Part shown: positions 21,786 to 41,190 of the stretch, piece by piece | Numbering within the stretch: position 1 is the stretch's first letter | Layout: each line of letters starts with the position of its first letter | Source of the DNA: Paraburkholderia sp. PGU19 | Lineage (GTDB): Bacteria > Pseudomonadota > Gammaproteobacteria > Burkholderiales > Burkholderiaceae | Direction of reading: 5' to 3' | DNA: 64,000 nt | NCBI RefSeq assembly: GCF_013426915.1 | Contig: NZ_AP023179.1 | Span: 558,001 to 622,000, forward strand | Translations under genes and position numbers: made by a program | The notes under the pieces: generated by a model | The model's database searches: none | Seen by the model: only the letters and a program-made list of their open reading frames with translations | What the model was told of the DNA's origin: nothing

Positions 21786-22796
21786 ATGGCAATGACACCA
21801 ACGAACGACCAGATTACCGGTGAACGTATCGACCGGTTGATGACAGTTGAAATACGCCCCCTGAACGGAGGACTGCCAGCAGGATTTGTCGTCCCGATGT
21901 ATCAGGTGTGCCGTGCGCATCACGGTGAACCACTGAGTTCTCTCGCGGCTCGCAAGCTCTCTGACACTTTGTCGAGCGGCGACATTGTTTTCATCGCGAC
22001 GGGAGCAGGGACGGCGCCCACGCTTCCGCAAGGCGAAACTGATGGACCAGTCGGTGCGGCAGTGCTGGCACGTGCGCTCACTCTGGCTTTCGGCGTCCGG
22101 GTTGTGCTCGTTACCGAAGAGGCGCATGGGGCTCCCGTCATGGCTGTTGCCGCAGTCATCAACGGGGAACTCGCGGAAATGGGCCGCACGGGTGCAGTGT
22201 CGACTGTCTGTTTCCCGCTCGGAATTGAGCGAGGCCAGGACATCGCGCACACCTTGATGGAGGAATACAGGCCTCGCGCTGTCATCTTCGTTGAGCGAGA
22301 CGGTCCAAACAAGGAAGGCTACTTCCATGGCGTGCGTGGCGACTGTCGGAACCCGGAAGACGTTGGGCATGTTTATCTCCTCGCTGAGTTGGCTCGCAAG
22401 CGTGGTGTGCTGACTATCGGCATTGGTGATGGCGGCAACGAGGTGGGATTCGGCGCCGTTCGCGACGCCATTACTGCCGTGCATCCGCTCGGCGGCAAAT
22501 CGCTCGCGGGTCACGCGTCTGGCGTCGTCACCGTGACAGCCACAGACATTGTCGTTAGCGCATCCGTGTCGAACTGGGGCGCCTATGCAATTGCTGCTGC
22601 GCTTGCGGCTCGTAAAAAGGACCCCAATGTGCTGCATACCCCGAAGCTCGAACACATCCTGATTGACGCGACAGTGCGAGCCGGTGCCAGGGACGGGGCT
22701 ACCTCAAAGGCAGAAGTGGCCGTTGACGGTATCAACTGGGAAGGCCACACATCGTTCGTCGAACTACTCAGAAGCATCGTTACTGTGTCCATCTGA
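21786..22796 (+). CDS. D-glutamate-cyclase-like (DUF4392) protein, copy 1
   Basis: A 336-residue protein of the family of the C-terminal domain of D-glutamate cyclase (DUF4392). Visible motifs are IATGAGTAPTLPQGETDGP near the N-terminus, VIFVERDGPNKEGYFHGVRG, and the strongly conserved TIGIGDGGNEVGFG. The only known activity in this family is conversion of D-glutamate to 5-oxo-D-proline in mitochondria. The bacterial protein lacks the rest of the human enzyme. A second copy follows the SelA-like gene at 24183. The role here is inferred to be a cyclisation, hydration or lyase step on the imported compound. Confidence 0.7.
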   Translation: MAMTPTNDQITGERIDRLMTVEIRPLNGGLPAGFVVPMYQVCRAHHGEPLSSLAARKLSDTLSSGDIVFIATGAGTAPTLPQGETDGPVGAAVLARALTLAFGVRVVLVTEEAHGAPVMAVAAVINGELAEMGRTGAVSTVCFPLGIERGQDIAHTLMEEYRPRAVIFVERDGPNKEGYFHGVRGDCRNPEDVGHVYLLAELARKRGVLTIGIGDGGNEVGFGAVRDAITAVHPLGGKSLAGHASGVVTVTATDIVVSASVSNWGAYAIAAALAARKKDPNVLHTPKLEHILIDATVRAGARDGATSKAEVAVDGINWEGHTSFVELLRSIVTVSI

Positions 22797-22860
22797 AGAT
22801 ACGGAACAACCAGACATCTCTCTCGCAGCAGCCCCCTTTTTGAATTGACAGGTGTATGAC

Positions 22861-24180
22861 ATGAGTGACGTAAAGGAAATTGTCAAGGCGGCGTCGCCTT
22901 CCAAAACGGCTCCGGCAAAGACAGACAGCTTCGGCAATCCGATTGACCCAACTGTGGGCTTCGCGCGCGGCACGATTATTCGCTCGAGCATCGATGAAGC
23001 ACTGCGCCTGCGTCACGGTCAGGCCGTTGCAGCACGTCGCGTGCAGATGCTGGGTGCAGAATCGATTGGCGTGTTCACCGGGAACCAGCGAGACTTTCCC
23101 ATCCACGCAGAAGATATCTCGACACTCTGTGAAGAATGGGTCGGTCCCGGCCTGGCCGCCGAAGAACTCCGTCAGGTTGCAATCGGGCACATGGGCGGGC
23201 GCGGTGACGACGCAGTCGCTATCTTCAACCGTACCAGTGCGGGCATCATCGCAACTATCGCAGCGCTCGCGGACGGCAAGCCAGTAGTCTCTGTTGTCCC
23301 TCCGGGCGGACGCTCACATGCATCGGTGGTCCGTGGCTCGAAAATAGCTGGCGTTCCCGTGCACGAAGTGCAAGGTGGCAAGGACTGGCTGAAGACTATT
23401 GAGTCGAACCGCCCAGCCCTCGTGGTTGTGACGACGGTCACGAGCAGTCTCGAGCGACTCGAAGACCACATTACGAAGGAAGTCATTCAGTATGCGCACG
23501 CACTTGGCGCCAAAGTCTTCCTTGATGAAGCCTATGGCGCCCGCTTGCGCACGGTGCTCCACGGTGGGCAACTGAGTTTGCAACTCGGCGCAGACATTTC
23601 CGTGACGAATTGCGACAAGGCTGGCCTCTCAGGCCCTCGCGCCGGCGTTCTGGTTGGTCGAAAGGAACTGGTGACTGCAGCGGCGGCCAAGGGCGCGGAG
23701 TTCGGGATGGAAGCACGCGCGCCGATAGCTGCCGCAGTGCTTCGCTCGCTGCAAAAGTATGAGCCTGAAGACCTTCGGCAGGAATCTGCCGCCGGTCAGA
23801 AGCTCGCCGACGCGCTTGAGCAGAAAATGGGCAAAGACCTTGTCCAGCGTAGCGACCTGGGTCCGATGGTCGATGAAGACGCTGTGCTTGGTGTACTGCT
23901 CAAGATGTCGGGCAAGGTCGACGCGAAGCCGGTTGTTGTGCCGTGTGAAGCGACATCGGCTCTCGGTATGGTCCTGCTCGAAGACCACGGCATTCTGACC
24001 GTCAACACGCACGGTCAACCAGGGGCTCGGGTATCGCTTCGACTAAAGCCCACGCTTGATGCGCTGGGACGCACTGGCGGATTTGACGCAGTCGTTTCTG
24101 CCGTAATGAAGTCCCTCGAAAAAGTGGCGGCTCTCATCCACGACCGCGATGCGATTGCGCAACTCGTAGTGGGGAAATGA
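22861..24180 (+). CDS. SelA-like PLP-dependent enzyme
   Basis: A 439-residue fold-type I PLP enzyme of the SelA / D-glucosaminate-6-phosphate ammonia-lyase group. FNRTSAGIIATIAAL resembles the phosphate-binding loop, Asp222 lies in VFLDEAYGAR, and the presumed cofactor Lys253 in TNCDKAGLSGPRAGVLVG. SelA itself would act with a selenocysteine tRNA, but no selB or tRNA-Sec is nearby, so an ammonia-lyase or aldolase on an amino acid is more likely. ATG 22861 behind AGGTG is favoured over GTG 22852. It sits between two cyclase-like genes and overlaps the second. Confidence 0.75.
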   Translation: MSDVKEIVKAASPSKTAPAKTDSFGNPIDPTVGFARGTIIRSSIDEALRLRHGQAVAARRVQMLGAESIGVFTGNQRDFPIHAEDISTLCEEWVGPGLAAEELRQVAIGHMGGRGDDAVAIFNRTSAGIIATIAALADGKPVVSVVPPGGRSHASVVRGSKIAGVPVHEVQGGKDWLKTIESNRPALVVVTTVTSSLERLEDHITKEVIQYAHALGAKVFLDEAYGARLRTVLHGGQLSLQLGADISVTNCDKAGLSGPRAGVLVGRKELVTAAAAKGAEFGMEARAPIAAAVLRSLQKYEPEDLRQESAAGQKLADALEQKMGKDLVQRSDLGPMVDEDAVLGVLLKMSGKVDAKPVVVPCEATSALGMVLLEDHGILTVNTHGQPGARVSLRLKPTLDALGRTGGFDAVVSAVMKSLEKVAALIHDRDAIAQLVVGK

Positions 24181-24182
24181 CA

Positions 24183-25193
24183 ATGACAACATCCAGTCTT
24201 TCAGCAATCGATGAGCGGCTTGACGCGCTTGTTTCGCTCGACCTTGGCGGTCGCGGTGTCGAGCAGCTCTATGCCGCCGCGCGAGAACGTCAGGGTAGCC
24301 CGCTCGTCGGAGCCGCAGCTGACGCTCTCGCGGCGATTCCAGAAAAAGCGAATGTGTTCGTAACAACGGGGTCCGTGTCGCGCGCATGGATTTCGCCAAC
24401 CATCGGCGAGAACGACGGTCCCGCTGGACTTGCCGCAGTGGTACGCGCATTGTCCCTGGCGAAGAAAGCCCTCTGTATTACCTTCGTCGAAGAAACGCTG
24501 ATTCCGACGACCTCCGCCATCCTGACGAGTGCCGGGCTTACGGTGCTCCCATACGGGCAGGCAAAAATCGCACGTGACGACGGAAGCCTGGCCGTCGTTT
24601 GTGTCGAACCGTTCCCGGTCGACGAAGCGAGCGCCAGGGACGTCTCGAACTCCCTCATCGAGAAGTACCAACCGGCGCTATTCTTCTCGACGGAACGTGT
24701 GGGACGTAATGTCGATGGTATCTATTGCAGCATGCGAGGCATCGACTACGGCATGGGACGTGCTCGAATCGACTTTCTGTTCGACGAGGCGATAAAGAGG
24801 AAGATTCGGACTGTTGCAGTTGGCGACGGCGGAAACGAGATTGGAATGGGCGTCGTTTCAGAAGCCGTCCAGAAGTACGTCAAATTTGGCGACAAGCGCC
24901 CCGACGGCAGCGCAGGTATCGGCGCTGTCACCGGTACGGACGTACTGGTCACAGCCGCTTGCTCTAACTGGGGTTGCTATGCGATTGCCGGAGCATTCGC
25001 GGCGCGTATGGGCAAAGCTACGCTCGCGCATAACCCCGTCCTTGAGGCAGCGCTGCTTCGACGAGGTGTAGACGTCGGCCTTATCAACTCCGTTGCTAAC
25101 GTCATCGACGGCAATGTCGACGGCATTCCCGAGGCGACGCACCTGGCCGTGGTCCAGCTTATCTCGACCATCATCGCCCCCGCCTTCAAGTAG
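24183..25193 (+). CDS. D-glutamate-cyclase-like (DUF4392) protein, copy 2
   Basis: A 336-residue paralogue of the protein at 21786: FVTTGSVSRAWISPTIGENDGP, then ALFFSTERVGRNVDGIYCSMRG and AVGDGGNEIGMG. The two probably form a heteromer or act on successive intermediates. An ATG at 24177 overlaps the previous stop, but 24183 has a normal distance to GGGGAA. Last gene of the operon; a strong inverted repeat follows. Function is inferred only from the family name. Confidence 0.7.
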   Translation: MTTSSLSAIDERLDALVSLDLGGRGVEQLYAAARERQGSPLVGAAADALAAIPEKANVFVTTGSVSRAWISPTIGENDGPAGLAAVVRALSLAKKALCITFVEETLIPTTSAILTSAGLTVLPYGQAKIARDDGSLAVVCVEPFPVDEASARDVSNSLIEKYQPALFFSTERVGRNVDGIYCSMRGIDYGMGRARIDFLFDEAIKRKIRTVAVGDGGNEIGMGVVSEAVQKYVKFGDKRPDGSAGIGAVTGTDVLVTAACSNWGCYAIAGAFAARMGKATLAHNPVLEAALLRRGVDVGLINSVANVIDGNVDGIPEATHLAVVQLISTIIAPAFK

Positions 25194-25517: not shown

Positions 25518-25715
25518 ATGAATCCGCAGAACGTGACTGCAATGTCTTTCGAAATCAAGGAAGCGTCTTCGACCAACATCCCACGCGTTCAGGCTGCGAA
25601 ATCCAGACGCACCTCAGCGTACGCGGCTTTGCTGCAGGGCCCGGCGTCCATGTTGGCAAGTAACGTGAGCGACAGAGCCGACGTCTCATTCGCCGCGATT
25701 CTCGGATACAACTGA
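25518..25715 (+). CDS. Small conserved peptide upstream of Ndh, copy 1
   Basis: A 65-residue protein, MNPQNVTAMSFEIKE..., with a C-terminal segment YAALLQGPASMLASNV followed by RADVSFAAILGYN. The peptide at 39673 shares Y..LL.GP....A.NV..RAD....AILGYN, so the reading frame is under selection. AAAGGTG precedes the ATG. It ends 12 bases before the Ndh start. There is no signal peptide, membrane helix or cysteine. It could be a small regulator or subunit of Ndh, or a precursor peptide. I know of no described family. Confidence 0.75.
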   Translation: MNPQNVTAMSFEIKEASSTNIPRVQAAKSRRTSAYAALLQGPASMLASNVSDRADVSFAAILGYN

Positions 25716-25727
25716 GCGAGGTCTGTG

Positions 25728-27029
25728 ATGCATCGCATCGTGATTGTTGGAGGCGGGGCTGGTGGTCTTGAATTGGCGACACGACTGGGCGACCGACTCG
25801 GGAAATTGGAACGCGCCCAGGTAACTCTCGTAGACCGTTGGCCTGCTCACGTCTGGAAACCTTTGCTGCACGAAGTCGCAACTGGCAGCCTGGACACGAG
25901 CACCCACCAGATTACGTACGCCGCGCACGCTCACTGGCATCACTTTGGATTCGTGCAGGGTGAGATGACTGGCCTCAATCGCAGCAACCGTGAAGTATCG
26001 GTCGCAGCGGTGCTCGACAATGACGGCACCGAAATTACACCTGCCAGAAACATCCCGTACGACACGCTAGTGCTCGCATTGGGAAGCAGGACGCACTTCT
26101 TCGGAGTGCCGGGAGCCCAGGAGCACGCGATTACGCTCGACACCCTTGAGCAAGCGGAATTGCTACGCAAGCGCCTGTTACAAGCCTGCCTCAAGAAGCG
26201 GTCCTTCACTGGTGATGTTAAAGATGAAGCGGTCAATGTCGCAATTATCGGGGCTGGCGCGACTGGTGTTGAACTCGCGGCCGGGTTACGTCGAATGGAA
26301 GACACATTCCGGCAGTTCGGCCTGCTTTCCAGTGAGAACGGGCATGAGATGCGAATCAGCCTCCTGGAAGCGGGGGCCAGGGTCCTTCCAGCGTTACCCG
26401 AGAAAGTCTCCGCGGCCACCCATGGTTCTCTCACAGACTTGGGGATTTCGATTTCCGTGTCGGACCCGGTCAACTGCGTCACGGCCAATGCGGTCGAAAC
26501 GAAAAGTGGCCATCTGGTTCCTGCTGACGTCACCATCTGGGCTGCTGGGATAAAGGCACCCGACGTGCTCGCATCCCTGGATGGCTTGGCCACAAATCGA
26601 ATCAACCAGTTGAAAGTCCTGAAAACTCTCCAGAGTGAGACGGACGAAAACATTTTCGCACTTGGTGATTGCGCAAGTTGTGCGTGGACAGACAGCCGCA
26701 TGGTTCCGCCGCGGGCGCAAGCCGCCCATCAACAGGCGATGTTTCTTTTCAAGGCGCTCATCGCCCGCATCGGCGGTCGCGCGCCAGGTTCCTTTTCATA
26801 CAAAGACTATGGTTCACTCATCTCGTTGGGGTCCGCCACGGCGGTAGGGAGCCTTTCAGGTCGCGCGAGGAGCGGAAACATCTTCGTCCAGGGCCTGGTA
26901 GCCAGGTTGATGTATGCCGCACTCTATCGCAAGCACCTCATTGCAGTCTCGGGTCTGCGTCAGATGGCTATTGCAGCCATTGCGCATGGCTTGCGGCGAT
27001 TCGCGACGCCGCGAGTAAAGCTACATTGA
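25728..27029 (+). CDS. ndh: Type II NADH dehydrogenase (Ndh), copy 1
   Basis: A 433-residue FAD flavoprotein very like E. coli Ndh. The N-terminal FAD loop is IVIVGGGAGGLELATRLG, then HVWKPLLHEVATGSLD; the NADH-binding loop is AIIGAGATGVELAAGLR; then WAAGIKAPDVLASLDGLATN, FALGDCASC and the C-terminal TPRVKLH. It oxidises NADH and passes electrons to quinone at the inner face of the membrane without pumping protons. ATG 25728 is preferred to GTG 25725. It is coupled to the small peptide gene and followed by a truncated transporter gene. A close paralogue is at 39883. Confidence 0.92.
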   Translation: MHRIVIVGGGAGGLELATRLGDRLGKLERAQVTLVDRWPAHVWKPLLHEVATGSLDTSTHQITYAAHAHWHHFGFVQGEMTGLNRSNREVSVAAVLDNDGTEITPARNIPYDTLVLALGSRTHFFGVPGAQEHAITLDTLEQAELLRKRLLQACLKKRSFTGDVKDEAVNVAIIGAGATGVELAAGLRRMEDTFRQFGLLSSENGHEMRISLLEAGARVLPALPEKVSAATHGSLTDLGISISVSDPVNCVTANAVETKSGHLVPADVTIWAAGIKAPDVLASLDGLATNRINQLKVLKTLQSETDENIFALGDCASCAWTDSRMVPPRAQAAHQQAMFLFKALIARIGGRAPGSFSYKDYGSLISLGSATAVGSLSGRARSGNIFVQGLVARLMYAALYRKHLIAVSGLRQMAIAAIAHGLRRFATPRVKLH

Positions 27030-38617: not shown

Positions 38618-39529
38618 TCACTGAACAGAACTGTCTCTGATGTATCGTTGCGCTGTCTCCATCAGCCAGCCTTCAAAGGCCTGCAGCATTGGCGAGTTTT
38701 GTTTGCGTTCGGGATAGACGAAGTAGTAGCCCTTGCTGCTCGGCAATGCCAGGTCGAAGGGCATCACAAGCTCCTCGGCCTCAAGCTCTTGCCCTACGAG
38801 GAACTTTGGCACCAGCGCGATTCCGAGCCCTGCCTTTGCCGCCACGACGAGCATCGAGAACAACTCGTATCGCTGGCCTCTCATGCTGTCCACGTCATGA
38901 ACGGCCGCTTGCGCAAGCCACTGTCGCCAGGCATCGGGACGTGCTGACTGGTGAAGCAACGTATAGTTGGCCACGTCGCGAGGAGCGAGCTTCTCCTTGC
39001 CCGCAAGCAGTCGTGGACTACATACGACCACGGTTTCTTCTCCGAAAAGATATTTCGCTACCGAGCCTGGCCAGACCGGGTCACCGAAGTGTATGGCCGC
39101 ATCGAAAGGCGTGTCCTTAAAGAGAAACGGCTCCGCCCGCGTTGTCAGATTAACGACGATGTCGTCGTGCGTCGCGTAGAAATCCGGTAGACGCGGAATA
39201 AGCCAACGCGTCGCAAAGGTCGGCGTTACCGCCAGTTCGATAATTCCGCCTGCGCTCCGATGCGCCATTGCAGCTAGGGTGTCGCGCTCCATCCGCTCCA
39301 GATTCTCGCGGACTCGTTTCGCGTAGATTTCGCCAGCTTCGGTCAGGCTGATTCGTCGCTTGAAGCGATTGAACAGTGGCGTGCCGAGGTACTCCTCGAG
39401 CCCCGCAACCTGGCGGCCCACGGCGCTTTGCGTGAGTGATAGCTCCTCGGCCGTGCGAGTGAAGCTCAGGTGCCGGGCGGCAGTCTCAAACGCGATGAGC
39501 GCGTCGATGCTAGGTATTTTGCGTCTCAC
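38618..39529 (-). CDS. LysR-family regulator (GcvA-like)
   Basis: A 303-residue LysR protein. Helix-turn-helix ALIAFETAARHLSFTRTAEE, then LTQSAVGRQVAGLEEYLG; the substrate domain has FATRWLIPRLPDFYATH, typical of the GcvA/AmpR group. GTG 39529 behind AAGGA appears to be the start. It is divergent from the second peptide-Ndh pair (39673), suggesting that it controls that pair. The regulator at 16853 belongs to a different LysR subgroup. Confidence 0.9.
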   Translation of the reverse strand: MRRKIPSIDALIAFETAARHLSFTRTAEELSLTQSAVGRQVAGLEEYLGTPLFNRFKRRISLTEAGEIYAKRVRENLERMERDTLAAMAHRSAGGIIELAVTPTFATRWLIPRLPDFYATHDDIVVNLTTRAEPFLFKDTPFDAAIHFGDPVWPGSVAKYLFGEETVVVCSPRLLAGKEKLAPRDVANYTLLHQSARPDAWRQWLAQAAVHDVDSMRGQRYELFSMLVVAAKAGLGIALVPKFLVGQELEAEELVMPFDLALPSSKGYYFVYPERKQNSPMLQAFEGWLMETAQRYIRDSSVQ

Positions 39530-39672
39530 ACATCCTTCCCGTTACGCACAACGTTGAGTAATTATTTCGTTTGCGAGCGTTCATTGGCGACTTGAGAATT
39601 GTTCGTGCATCGCGTTGTTGTTTGCGATGGCGACGCAAATATATTTTCAACCGAACGTTCTCAAAGCGAAAC

Positions 39673-39867
39673 ATGAGCCACTTCATCGACGACGACGCTT
39701 TCTCCTTCCAGGACTTCCTGAACAACCGTTTCGCCCCGAAGAGCGTGGCGGACGAGGCAGTCAACACATCGTACTCGAAGCTGCTGGAAGGTCCGGTCGC
39801 CGTCATTGCCGGCAATGTCCCGGAGCGTGCGGACGCTAACTCGGTTGCCATCTTAGGTTACAACTGA
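39673..39867 (+). CDS. Small conserved peptide upstream of Ndh, copy 2
   Basis: A 64-residue acidic protein, MSHFIDDDAFSFQDFLNN, with YSKLLEGPVAVIAGNV then RADANSVAILGYN at the end. It is homologous to the peptide at 25518 in its C-terminal half (LL.GP, NV..RAD, AILGYN identical or nearly so); the N-terminal halves differ. It ends 15 bases before the Ndh start. No signal peptide, Cys or membrane helix. The shared C-terminus suggests a binding or recognition tail. Confidence 0.75.
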   Translation: MSHFIDDDAFSFQDFLNNRFAPKSVADEAVNTSYSKLLEGPVAVIAGNVPERADANSVAILGYN

Positions 39868-39882
39868 AATGGGGAGTTGCAG

Positions 39883-41190
39883 ATGCATCGCATCGTAATC
39901 GTAGGGGGAGGCGCTGGAGGCCTGGAACTGGCCACGCGTCTTGGCAACCGCTTGGGGAGGTCTGGCCGAGCGCAAGTGACCCTGGTCGACCGCTGTGCCG
40001 TACACGTATGGAAGCCGCTCCTGCACGAAGTGGCGACTGGCAGCCTCGATACGCACGCGCACGAAATTGCATATGCGGCTCACTCACACTGGAACCACTT
40101 CAACTTCGTGCACGGCGAGATGACGGGCGTTGACCGCGACAACCGGTGCTTGAAGGTGGGGCCCCTGTTCGATTCAGAAAGCAACGATTCCGAGGTGCTT
40201 CCTCCCCGGAATCTTGAGTACGACACGCTGGTGCTCGCGCTCGGCAGCCGTACGCATTTCTTTGGCGTGCCGGGTGCGGAAGAACACGCCATCGCACTCG
40301 ATACGCTTCAGCAGGCGGAGCGGCTTCGCAAGCGTCTGCTACAGGTGTGCCTGAAGAAACGCGCACACAGCACCAACGAAGCAAATGAAGCGGTCGACAT
40401 TGCCATCATCGGCGGCGGCGCAACGGGGGTCGAGCTTGCAGCCGAGCTCCGGCGCATGGAGCACACGTTGAAGGAGTTCCGGGTTCTCTCGGATACTCCG
40501 CGGGGCTCTATGCGCATCTCCCTTCTGGAACGAGGCGGCCGAGTGCTGCCGACCCTTCAGGAACGTGTTTCCGAAACGACGCGCGAAACACTCGAAGAGA
40601 TGGGTGTTGCCGTGCGAGTGTCGACGACAGTGACGCGCGTCCAGCCCGAATGGGTCGAGGTTGAAGGCGGAGCGTCGATTCCGGCGGACATTACGATTTG
40701 GGCAGCAGGCATAAGGGCGCCGAGCGTCCTGGCATCGCTCGACGGTCTCGCGGTCAATCACATCAACCAGGTCAAGGTCACGAGTTCGCTGCAGAGCGAA
40801 TCGGACTCGAACGTCTACGCGCTCGGAGACTGCGCGAGTTGCGCGATGACCGGTGAGGCGCCCGTTCCGCCGAGAGCTCAGGCAGCGCACCAACAGGCCA
40901 TGTTCCTGTTCAAGGCGCTCTGCGCTCGAATTGACGGTCGTCCCATCGGCGCATTCACTTACAAAGACCATGGGTCGCTCGTTTCTTTAGGTTCACCGAC
41001 AGCGGTGGGCAGTATCGCAGGCATCACCAGCACCGGGAAGTTCTTCGTCGAGGGATTCGTCGCAAAATTGATGTATGCGGCCCTTTATCGGAAGCATCTG
41101 GTCGCCGTCTCCGGCCTGCGACGAGCCGTTTTTACAATTGCTGCGCATGGCCTCGGCCGCTTGCTGACGCCCCGGGTCAAGCTGCACTGA
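39883..41190 (+). CDS. ndh: Type II NADH dehydrogenase (Ndh), copy 2
   Basis: A 435-residue flavoprotein close to the one at 25728 and to E. coli Ndh: IVIVGGGAGGLELATRLGNR, HVWKPLLHEVATGSLD, AIIGGGATGVELAAELRRME, WAAGIRAPSVLASLDGLAVN, YALGDCASC, and C-terminal TPRVKLH. GGGGAG precedes ATG 39883. It oxidises NADH to reduce quinone without proton pumping. No classical core Ndh context is present, so both copies are accessory. It sits behind the small peptide and a divergent LysR gene. Confidence 0.92.
   Translation: MHRIVIVGGGAGGLELATRLGNRLGRSGRAQVTLVDRCAVHVWKPLLHEVATGSLDTHAHEIAYAAHSHWNHFNFVHGEMTGVDRDNRCLKVGPLFDSESNDSEVLPPRNLEYDTLVLALGSRTHFFGVPGAEEHAIALDTLQQAERLRKRLLQVCLKKRAHSTNEANEAVDIAIIGGGATGVELAAELRRMEHTLKEFRVLSDTPRGSMRISLLERGGRVLPTLQERVSETTRETLEEMGVAVRVSTTVTRVQPEWVEVEGGASIPADITIWAAGIRAPSVLASLDGLAVNHINQVKVTSSLQSESDSNVYALGDCASCAMTGEAPVPPRAQAAHQQAMFLFKALCARIDGRPIGAFTYKDHGSLVSLGSPTAVGSIAGITSTGKFFVEGFVAKLMYAALYRKHLVAVSGLRRAVFTIAAHGLGRLLTPRVKLH

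Follow-up and report, generated by a model that had tools for sequence, protein, structure and literature searches.

GYN-tail peptides: short Burkholderiaceae proteins with a common C-terminus, two of which precede predicted type II NADH dehydrogenase genes in Paraburkholderia

In the window (the whole stretch of 64,000 nucleotides analysed here) two short ORFs, each ending in AILGYN, stand directly in front of two genes for predicted type II NADH dehydrogenases (NDH-2), and the question is whether such an ORF is an accident of annotation, an adjunct of the enzyme whose gene follows it, or something of wider relevance. The arrangement given in a preliminary description was confirmed: for peptide 1 (full sequence MNPQNVTAMSFEIKEASSTNIPRVQAAKSRRTSAYAALLQGPASMLASNVSDRADVSFAAILGYN) the ATG is at 25518 and the TGA at 25713-25715, 12 bases before the ndh ATG at 25728, and for peptide 2 (full sequence MSHFIDDDAFSFQDFLNNRFAPKSVADEAVNTSYSKLLEGPVAVIAGNVPERADANSVAILGYN) the ATG is at 39673 and the TGA at 39865-39867, 15 bases before the ndh ATG at 39883 (Table 1). 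Both are members of a Burkholderiaceae family of mini-proteins of about 45-90 residues, probably largely unstructured, for which the name ‘GYN-tail’ peptides is coined here.

The likeness of the two peptides is not due to chance. Their local alignment scores 98, the maximum in 5000 shuffles of one partner being 48, and a coding pattern for ILGYN followed by a stop occurs twice in the window and not at all in 60 simulated windows. The C-termini had been called nearly identical, which holds for the last six residues but is too strong for the last 33, where identity is 52% (31% over the whole length). Against the family profile, of whose 25 rows it is itself one, peptide 1 gives E 7e-23. The assigned N-termini are likely rather than proven, as both frames are open further 5′ (counted from the first possible start, they span 171 and 98 codons). 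No good Shine-Dalgarno sequence is present in front of the ATG of peptide 2; one of AGGAG type precedes the ATG in most of the members linked to DUF3422, a context dealt with below.

Table 1. Positions in the window of the two peptide-ndh pairs and of the features around them
Feature	Position	Strand	Basis
Peptide 1, 65 aa, C-terminus ...DRADVSFAAILGYN-TGA	25518..25715	+	ORF reading; family profile match
C-terminal 33 codons of peptide 1, conserved	25614..25712	+	Alignment, selection analysis
NDH-2 isozyme 1 (predicted), 433 aa, in peptide-linked NDH-2 clade	25728..27029	+	Pyr_redox_2, structure relatives, tree, motifs
Peptide 2, 64 aa, C-terminus ...ERADANSVAILGYN-TGA	39673..39867	+	ORF reading; protein search
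C-terminal 33 codons of peptide 2, conserved	39766..39864	+	Alignment, selection analysis
NDH-2 isozyme 2 (predicted), 435 aa, in same clade as isozyme 1	39883..41190	+	Pyr_redox_2, structure relatives, tree, motifs
D-glutamate-cyclase-like gene, 5′ of pair 1	21786..22796	+	Pfam PF14336
442-aa gene between the two cyclase-like genes, putatively SelA-like (inspection only)	22852..24180	+	No Pfam match
Second D-glutamate-cyclase-like gene, 5′ of peptide 1	24177..25193	+	Pfam scan, locus neighbours
Divergent regulator of pair 2, putatively LysR-type (inspection only)	38618..39529	-	Locus comparison
Conserved intergenic stretch, divergent gene to peptide-ndh (CGTTACGCACAACGTTGAG...TTATTTCGTTTGC)	39530..39574		Alignment

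Elsewhere in the 11.2-Mb genome the peptides have relatives. The DNA pattern for ILGYN-stop is found at four places, each the end of a small ORF, with none for the reversed control pattern, and the family profile picks out the same four, i.e. two copies beyond the window pairs (three further weak matches, E 0.006-0.45, each with an internal stop, were set aside). The third copy is directly 3′ of a DUF3422 homologue, and the fourth lies between a carboxymuconolactone-decarboxylase (CMD) gene, on its 5′ side, and a GntR-type gene. Protein searching with peptide 2 yielded 24 matches, the query itself included, one of them labelled as from a Sphingomonas metagenome bin, presumably through a binning error. 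A profile gave 381 clusters at E<=1, and among the 120 of these that were listed none has a Pfam domain, such source names as they have being hypothetical, uncharacterized or unknown function. In 299 genomes of the family the ILGYN-stop pattern was present 87 times, spread over 68 genomes and 8 of 25 genera, with five matches for the control; two of the 87 have TGG in place of the stop. Of 399 genomes in the order, four match; these belong to the 13 from the window's own family, the other 386 giving no match. The 78 places given by a stricter pattern in named genomes are all in Burkholderia, Paraburkholderia, Caballeronia, Cupriavidus, Pandoraea or Trinickia. At genus level, 67 of 144 genomes have a profile match at E<=0.1, though chance probably accounts for the weakest; matches number none to six per genome and are in different operons.

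The supposition that the peptides belong to no known family was borne out in Pfam, NCBIfam and PHROGs, where, with 41 members scanned, each of the families listed was hit by a single member (best E 0.0087, 0.051 and 0.086). The family profile against solved structures yielded 50S L10 at E 0.3 and nothing else. No paper on the family was among the matches listed in a literature search, which does not prove its absence from print, and by the libraries and papers searched the family is provisionally judged new. Chance or annotation artefact is ruled out by the whole-genome pattern count, the shuffle test and dN/dS. Short ORFs ending ILGYN, with the rest of the conserved segment lacking, at loci L122 (near 6113) and L146 (near 6095) may match by chance or be degenerate members.

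Conservation lies in the C-terminal ~33 residues and runs right up to the stop codon; the N-terminal half is variable. The consensus is S-x-Y-x-x-L-L-x-x-P-x-x-x-L-A-x-N-x-x-D/E-R-A/P-D-V-x-x-x-A-I-L-G-Y-N, with strong conservation, in 54 C-termini of less than 80% identity, of A -6, D -11, R -13, P -24, Y -31 and L at -20, -27 and -28; 5′ of position -33 the same set shows none. Analyses of conservation, pN/pS, dN/dS, codons and RNA structure used only ORFs encoding ILGYN-stop, AAC and AAT both being allowed, with near-identical 33-mers collapsed at 80% (to 54) or 90% (to 67), and for the census of loci given below at 95% (to 96); L122 and L146, which have the ILGYN end without fitting the family, were retained in the sets of 54 and 96. 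That all 54 end in ILGYN proves nothing on constancy of the tail, since the set was selected for it. More pertinent are two sets not gathered by motif, in which AILGYN ends all 25 rows (the first protein search with its query, plus peptide 1) and all 30 loci fetched by profile; a few AVLGYN ends were also found by profile.

That the peptides are coding sequences under purifying selection, as had been proposed, is shown by a dN/dS of 0.14 in the last 33 codons, with 0.32 in the 25 codons that precede them (the 306 pairs used having been preselected as alignable). The frame, whose absence from relatives the preliminary description had named as telling against it, is conserved in them. The pN/pS of the C-part is 0.34 (1625 pairs). 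Its pS is 0.256 as against 0.433, and with amino acids matched 0.217 as against 0.290; with this shrinkage a general deficit of synonymous change was discarded and only the position-specific codon bias kept. A DNA site in place of a peptide was rejected because codons at other positions vary, and RNAalifold (43 sequences) gave no sign of a conserved RNA fold where the C-terminal part is encoded. An AlphaFold model (107 sequences) predicts, at low confidence (mean pLDDT 61, pTM 0.24), helices at 7-18 and 33-47 and an extended tail.

The codon bias at the peptide end is pronounced. All 54 members left by the 80% filter use AAC for the final Asn (nearby genes predict 38), and so do all 67 left by the 90% filter (64-70% expected), irrespective of context (9/9 before ndh, 58/58 elsewhere); the codon is also AAC in 30/30 profile-fetched loci and in 6/6 VLGYN or RGYN forms. 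For Asn elsewhere in the same segments the ratio of AAC to AAT is 35 to 18, and at other gene ends 9 to 5. At Ile -5 the codon is ATT or ATA in 35 of 54 (13 expected), the common ATC being avoided, and at Leu -28 it is TTG or TTA in 20 of 34 (3.6 expected). The p-values for such bias are overstated because members are related by descent, though the same sequences have diverged at other codons. The invariant AAC may reflect a need for accurate decoding of an essential Asn, or else a role played while translation terminates. Accuracy at Asn codons is discussed for flies in PMC4260829.

As to the enzymes, both are of NDH-2 type as judged by sequence: they share with type II NADH dehydrogenases the Pyr_redox_2 domain, the FAD and NAD motifs and AQAAHQQA, and their nearest solved structures are YjlD (E 2e-37) and other NDH-2, with the best NCBIfam model, TIGR03169, far below its cut-off. 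The two isozymes are 67% identical. The genome has four full-length NDH-2 genes, and the other two, at 55% and 45% identity, have no GYN-tail ORF upstream. Searches started from NDH-2 found a GYN-stop ORF upstream of six out of six matches at E<=1e-150 in 141 genomes of the genus (only five of which have such a match) and upstream of all the ten best matches (56-100% identity) in 299 genomes of the family. With three common to both searches, that gives a peptide upstream in 13 of 13 clade genes (12 distinct proteins), one checked through L111 and one with a peptide of the second subfamily described below. For housekeeping NDH-2 the figure is 0 of 21 distinct proteins, from 22 fetched loci among many lower-ranking matches (55% identity and below). 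At L140 and L142 a housekeeping-clade NDH-2 has the peptide downstream instead of upstream.

The tree places all 14 linked NDH-2, of which four were found by way of the peptide, in a single group (support 100/100, one change, stem length 0.68). All 14 keep the FAD, NAD and quinone motifs, which we take to be two nucleotide-binding GxGxxG and a quinone-site AQxAxQ. Apart from being a separate clade on that long stem, they differ from housekeeping NDH-2 at seven positions, fixed in the 14 and different in at least 16 of 17 housekeeping proteins. The spacing from peptide to ndh is 12-19 bases in 12 of the 14, and 26 and 97 in the others.

The surroundings of the pair vary. At some loci there is a divergent regulator with a conserved intergenic stretch: homologues of the regulator in the window (73-87% identity) are divergent to the peptide at six other loci, and the intergenic alignment covers seven loci, some closely related. 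A D-glutamate-cyclase-like cassette is found around window pair 1 and at L145 and L157, enolase-TpiA is beside the pair at L111, and a putative EtfA, named from its ORF by inspection, is beside that at L244. As the operons differ, peptide and NDH-2 behave as a unit placed in several operons. In the window, the 442-aa protein matches no Pfam family at E<=1e-5, and the neighbourhood of its gene recurs 5′ of the peptide at other loci (clusters c8, c13). A terminator-like hairpin with a T-rich tail, at 39612-39641, is ~30 bases 5′ of peptide 2; it is absent from the aligned relatives (7 loci) and not conserved. An Rfam scan of the window yielded one tRNA and nothing else.

The claim that the peptide is coupled to Ndh stands in that the pairing is kept in relatives, but it proved too narrow: NDH-2 is downstream at only 13 of 96 nonredundant peptide loci, gathered with the pattern [IVL][LMR]GYN, and so absent there from 83. 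In that census, with upstream meaning a gene end within 1000 nt and downstream a gene start within 150 nt, DUF3422 is upstream in 18, the D-glutamate-cyclase-like gene (24177..25193 or a homologue) in seven, window pair 1 counted, CMD in six and TpiA in three; a divergent regulator is present in seven and a downstream GntR in three, others having one or two each. None of the tested neighbour classes is present at 43 of the 96, some loci being clipped by the 8-kb pieces fetched. Often the peptide is 3′ of the last enzyme gene of an operon (DUF3422, D-glutamate-cyclase-like, CMD), and of 23 DUF3422 loci (uncollapsed) 19 have no same-strand predicted gene start within 150 nt downstream and four do. 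Depending on context, intrinsic terminators 3′ of the peptide number 1/18, 0/13 and 0/6, not exceeding what shuffled sequences give. The linked eno, tpiA and lpd (lipoamide dehydrogenase) genes are each a second copy, sharing 96%, 54% and 91% identity with another one in their genome. NDH-2 is the dependent partner of the peptide and not the whole story.

A second subfamily, with GYN-stop in common, was found via L244, whose NDH-2 has such a peptide upstream. Its pattern is QI[SAG]AxPxYVxxV...[IV][LR]GYN, linker indels are tolerated, and a search yielded 109 proteins at E<=10; at two loci the peptide is between an aminotransferase and a PNPOx-like gene. L244, as a single case, suggests that the tail is what matters. 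In another variant, P0240, the middle part is lacking and the ORF end is still VLGYN.

What, then, do the peptides do? The narrowest answer, a private small subunit or anchor of the peptide-linked isozyme, draws on the 13 of 13 clade genes preceded by a peptide, but it is very improbable and, as a general role, had to be given up, since the loci are dispersed and 83 of 96 are without NDH-2 downstream, where such a subunit would be expected only with NDH-2; in the genus, moreover, the enzyme match is in 5 of 141 genomes when the peptide match, in its weakest cases probably chance, is in 67 of 144. A cis-acting role is unlikely but a live alternative. The last ~33 residues, the length of the ribosome tunnel, would as nascent chain act in a TnaC-like manner, slowing or arresting the ribosome when it reaches the AAC and stop codons; in the ndh pairs the paused ribosome would mask the ribosome-binding site of ndh, 12-19 bases downstream, and control ndh in this way. 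Conservation from about 33 residues before the stop up to the stop fits, as do, for stalling only indirectly, the codon bias at Ile -5 and Leu -28 and the spacing in 12 of the 14 linked cases, and its strongest point is the invariant AAC in every set counted above (54/54, 67/67, 30/30, 6/6). A short ORF before an enzyme gene, a conserved C-terminus ending at the stop and end-codon bias are shared with TnaC and other arrest leader peptides. A leader, however, is upstream of the gene that it controls, which is the case before ndh and not for the family: many copies are behind enzyme genes with no close downstream gene, and at the 19 of 23 DUF3422 loci there is thus nothing to lead. Its AAC, moreover, is as invariant away from ndh (58/58) as before it (9/9), purifying selection extends to the N-terminal half, the aligned region has no conserved RNA structure and the second subfamily tolerates linker indels. 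GYN-tail peptides also differ from arrest leaders in being many dispersed paralogues with one tail, of 45-90 residues.

The peptide as processed precursor, with AILGYN or part of it the product (a modified peptide, cofactor-like molecule or signal) and its maturation enzyme encoded elsewhere in the genome, is likewise unlikely but a live alternative. A short C-terminus that hardly varies beneath several N-termini and two different kinds of upstream segment, the multiple copies per genome, and an invariant Tyr and C-terminal Asn, both chemically useful residues, would suit it. There are parallels to PqqA and MftA, precursors of RiPP cofactors, which are likewise small, have invariant C-terminal residues including Tyr and are partly beside oxidoreductase genes, and to the microcin C precursor MccA with its obligatory C-terminal Asn. 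But GYN-tail copies are many, in unrelated operons and with no recurrent maturation gene nearby, whereas for a RiPP precursor the maturation enzyme would be encoded close by. Among 882 neighbour ORFs, of which those >150 aa were tested, a CxxxCxxC motif is present in four, none nearer than 1.8 kb; no RiPP-type family is among the 25 listed of 91 matched families (70 of 89 neighbour clusters), and no ThiF or MccB family is among those 25, MccA differing also in length and contexts. Radical-SAM or other RiPP enzymes were thus sought near the peptides and not found in these ORFs and listed families, and a RiPP cluster is disfavoured because no modifying enzyme recurs nearby. An invariant product of many precursors would, besides, carry no operon-specific information.

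With leader, private subunit and RiPP cluster argued against and the tail common to all, a trans-acting mini-protein that docks through its C-terminal tail is favoured, tentatively and at somewhat less than an even chance. Action in trans, rather than as a leader, is preferred because the peptide is 3′ of DUF3422 at 18 of 96 loci and no close downstream gene follows in most of the uncollapsed DUF3422 set; as a general role, a leader is disfavoured by positions behind enzyme genes. Production of the peptide would accompany that of an accessory enzyme or catabolic operon, and by its short helix and extended tail with a free C-terminal Asn it would dock onto a putative common partner, one that all copies share because they have the same tail; once docked it may serve as regulator or adaptor of energy and carbon metabolism, and copies would differ in the operon that reports or comes under control. 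Its co-products in the window would be two NDH-2 isozymes, and there it would most likely act at NDH-2 itself or in the membrane or quinone environment of the enzyme. Purifying selection, own start sites, a constant tail, NDH-2 dependence, accessory isozymes and the AlphaFold helices and tail appear to count for docking, though the model itself is too weak to support it. Counted against it are the 43 of 96 loci without tested neighbour classes and the AAC of all 67 members, which a purely protein-level role leaves unexplained unless decoding accuracy at an essential Asn is selected.

It is possible, if held more loosely, that the GYN-stop tail with its fixed AAC, on dozens of unrelated operons and isozyme genes, constitutes a distributed control system, in which the same tail is everywhere recognised, whether by a single shared receptor or, at the stop codon, by the ribosome; one NDH-2 clade would have come to depend on it, keeping the tail even with the other subfamily. 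If one partner reads the tail, dispersed metabolic operons of Burkholderiaceae share a control layer, one that annotation would have passed over, the ORFs being short and unnamed. A pairing as strict as that with NDH-2 provides a direct experimental handle, and the invariant AAC makes it testable whether function is in the finished peptide or in its synthesis.

Enolase-TpiA pairs are, as second copies, next to the peptide at L111 (3117-5317) and L134, the two enolases of the L111 genome being 96% identical. No paper naming DUF3422 was found in the literature searched. The order of DUF3422 followed by a GYN-tail ORF is seen at L083 and 22 further loci, also at L190, L191, L212 and L235, and recurs in Burkholderia, Paraburkholderia and two more genera (L143, L149).
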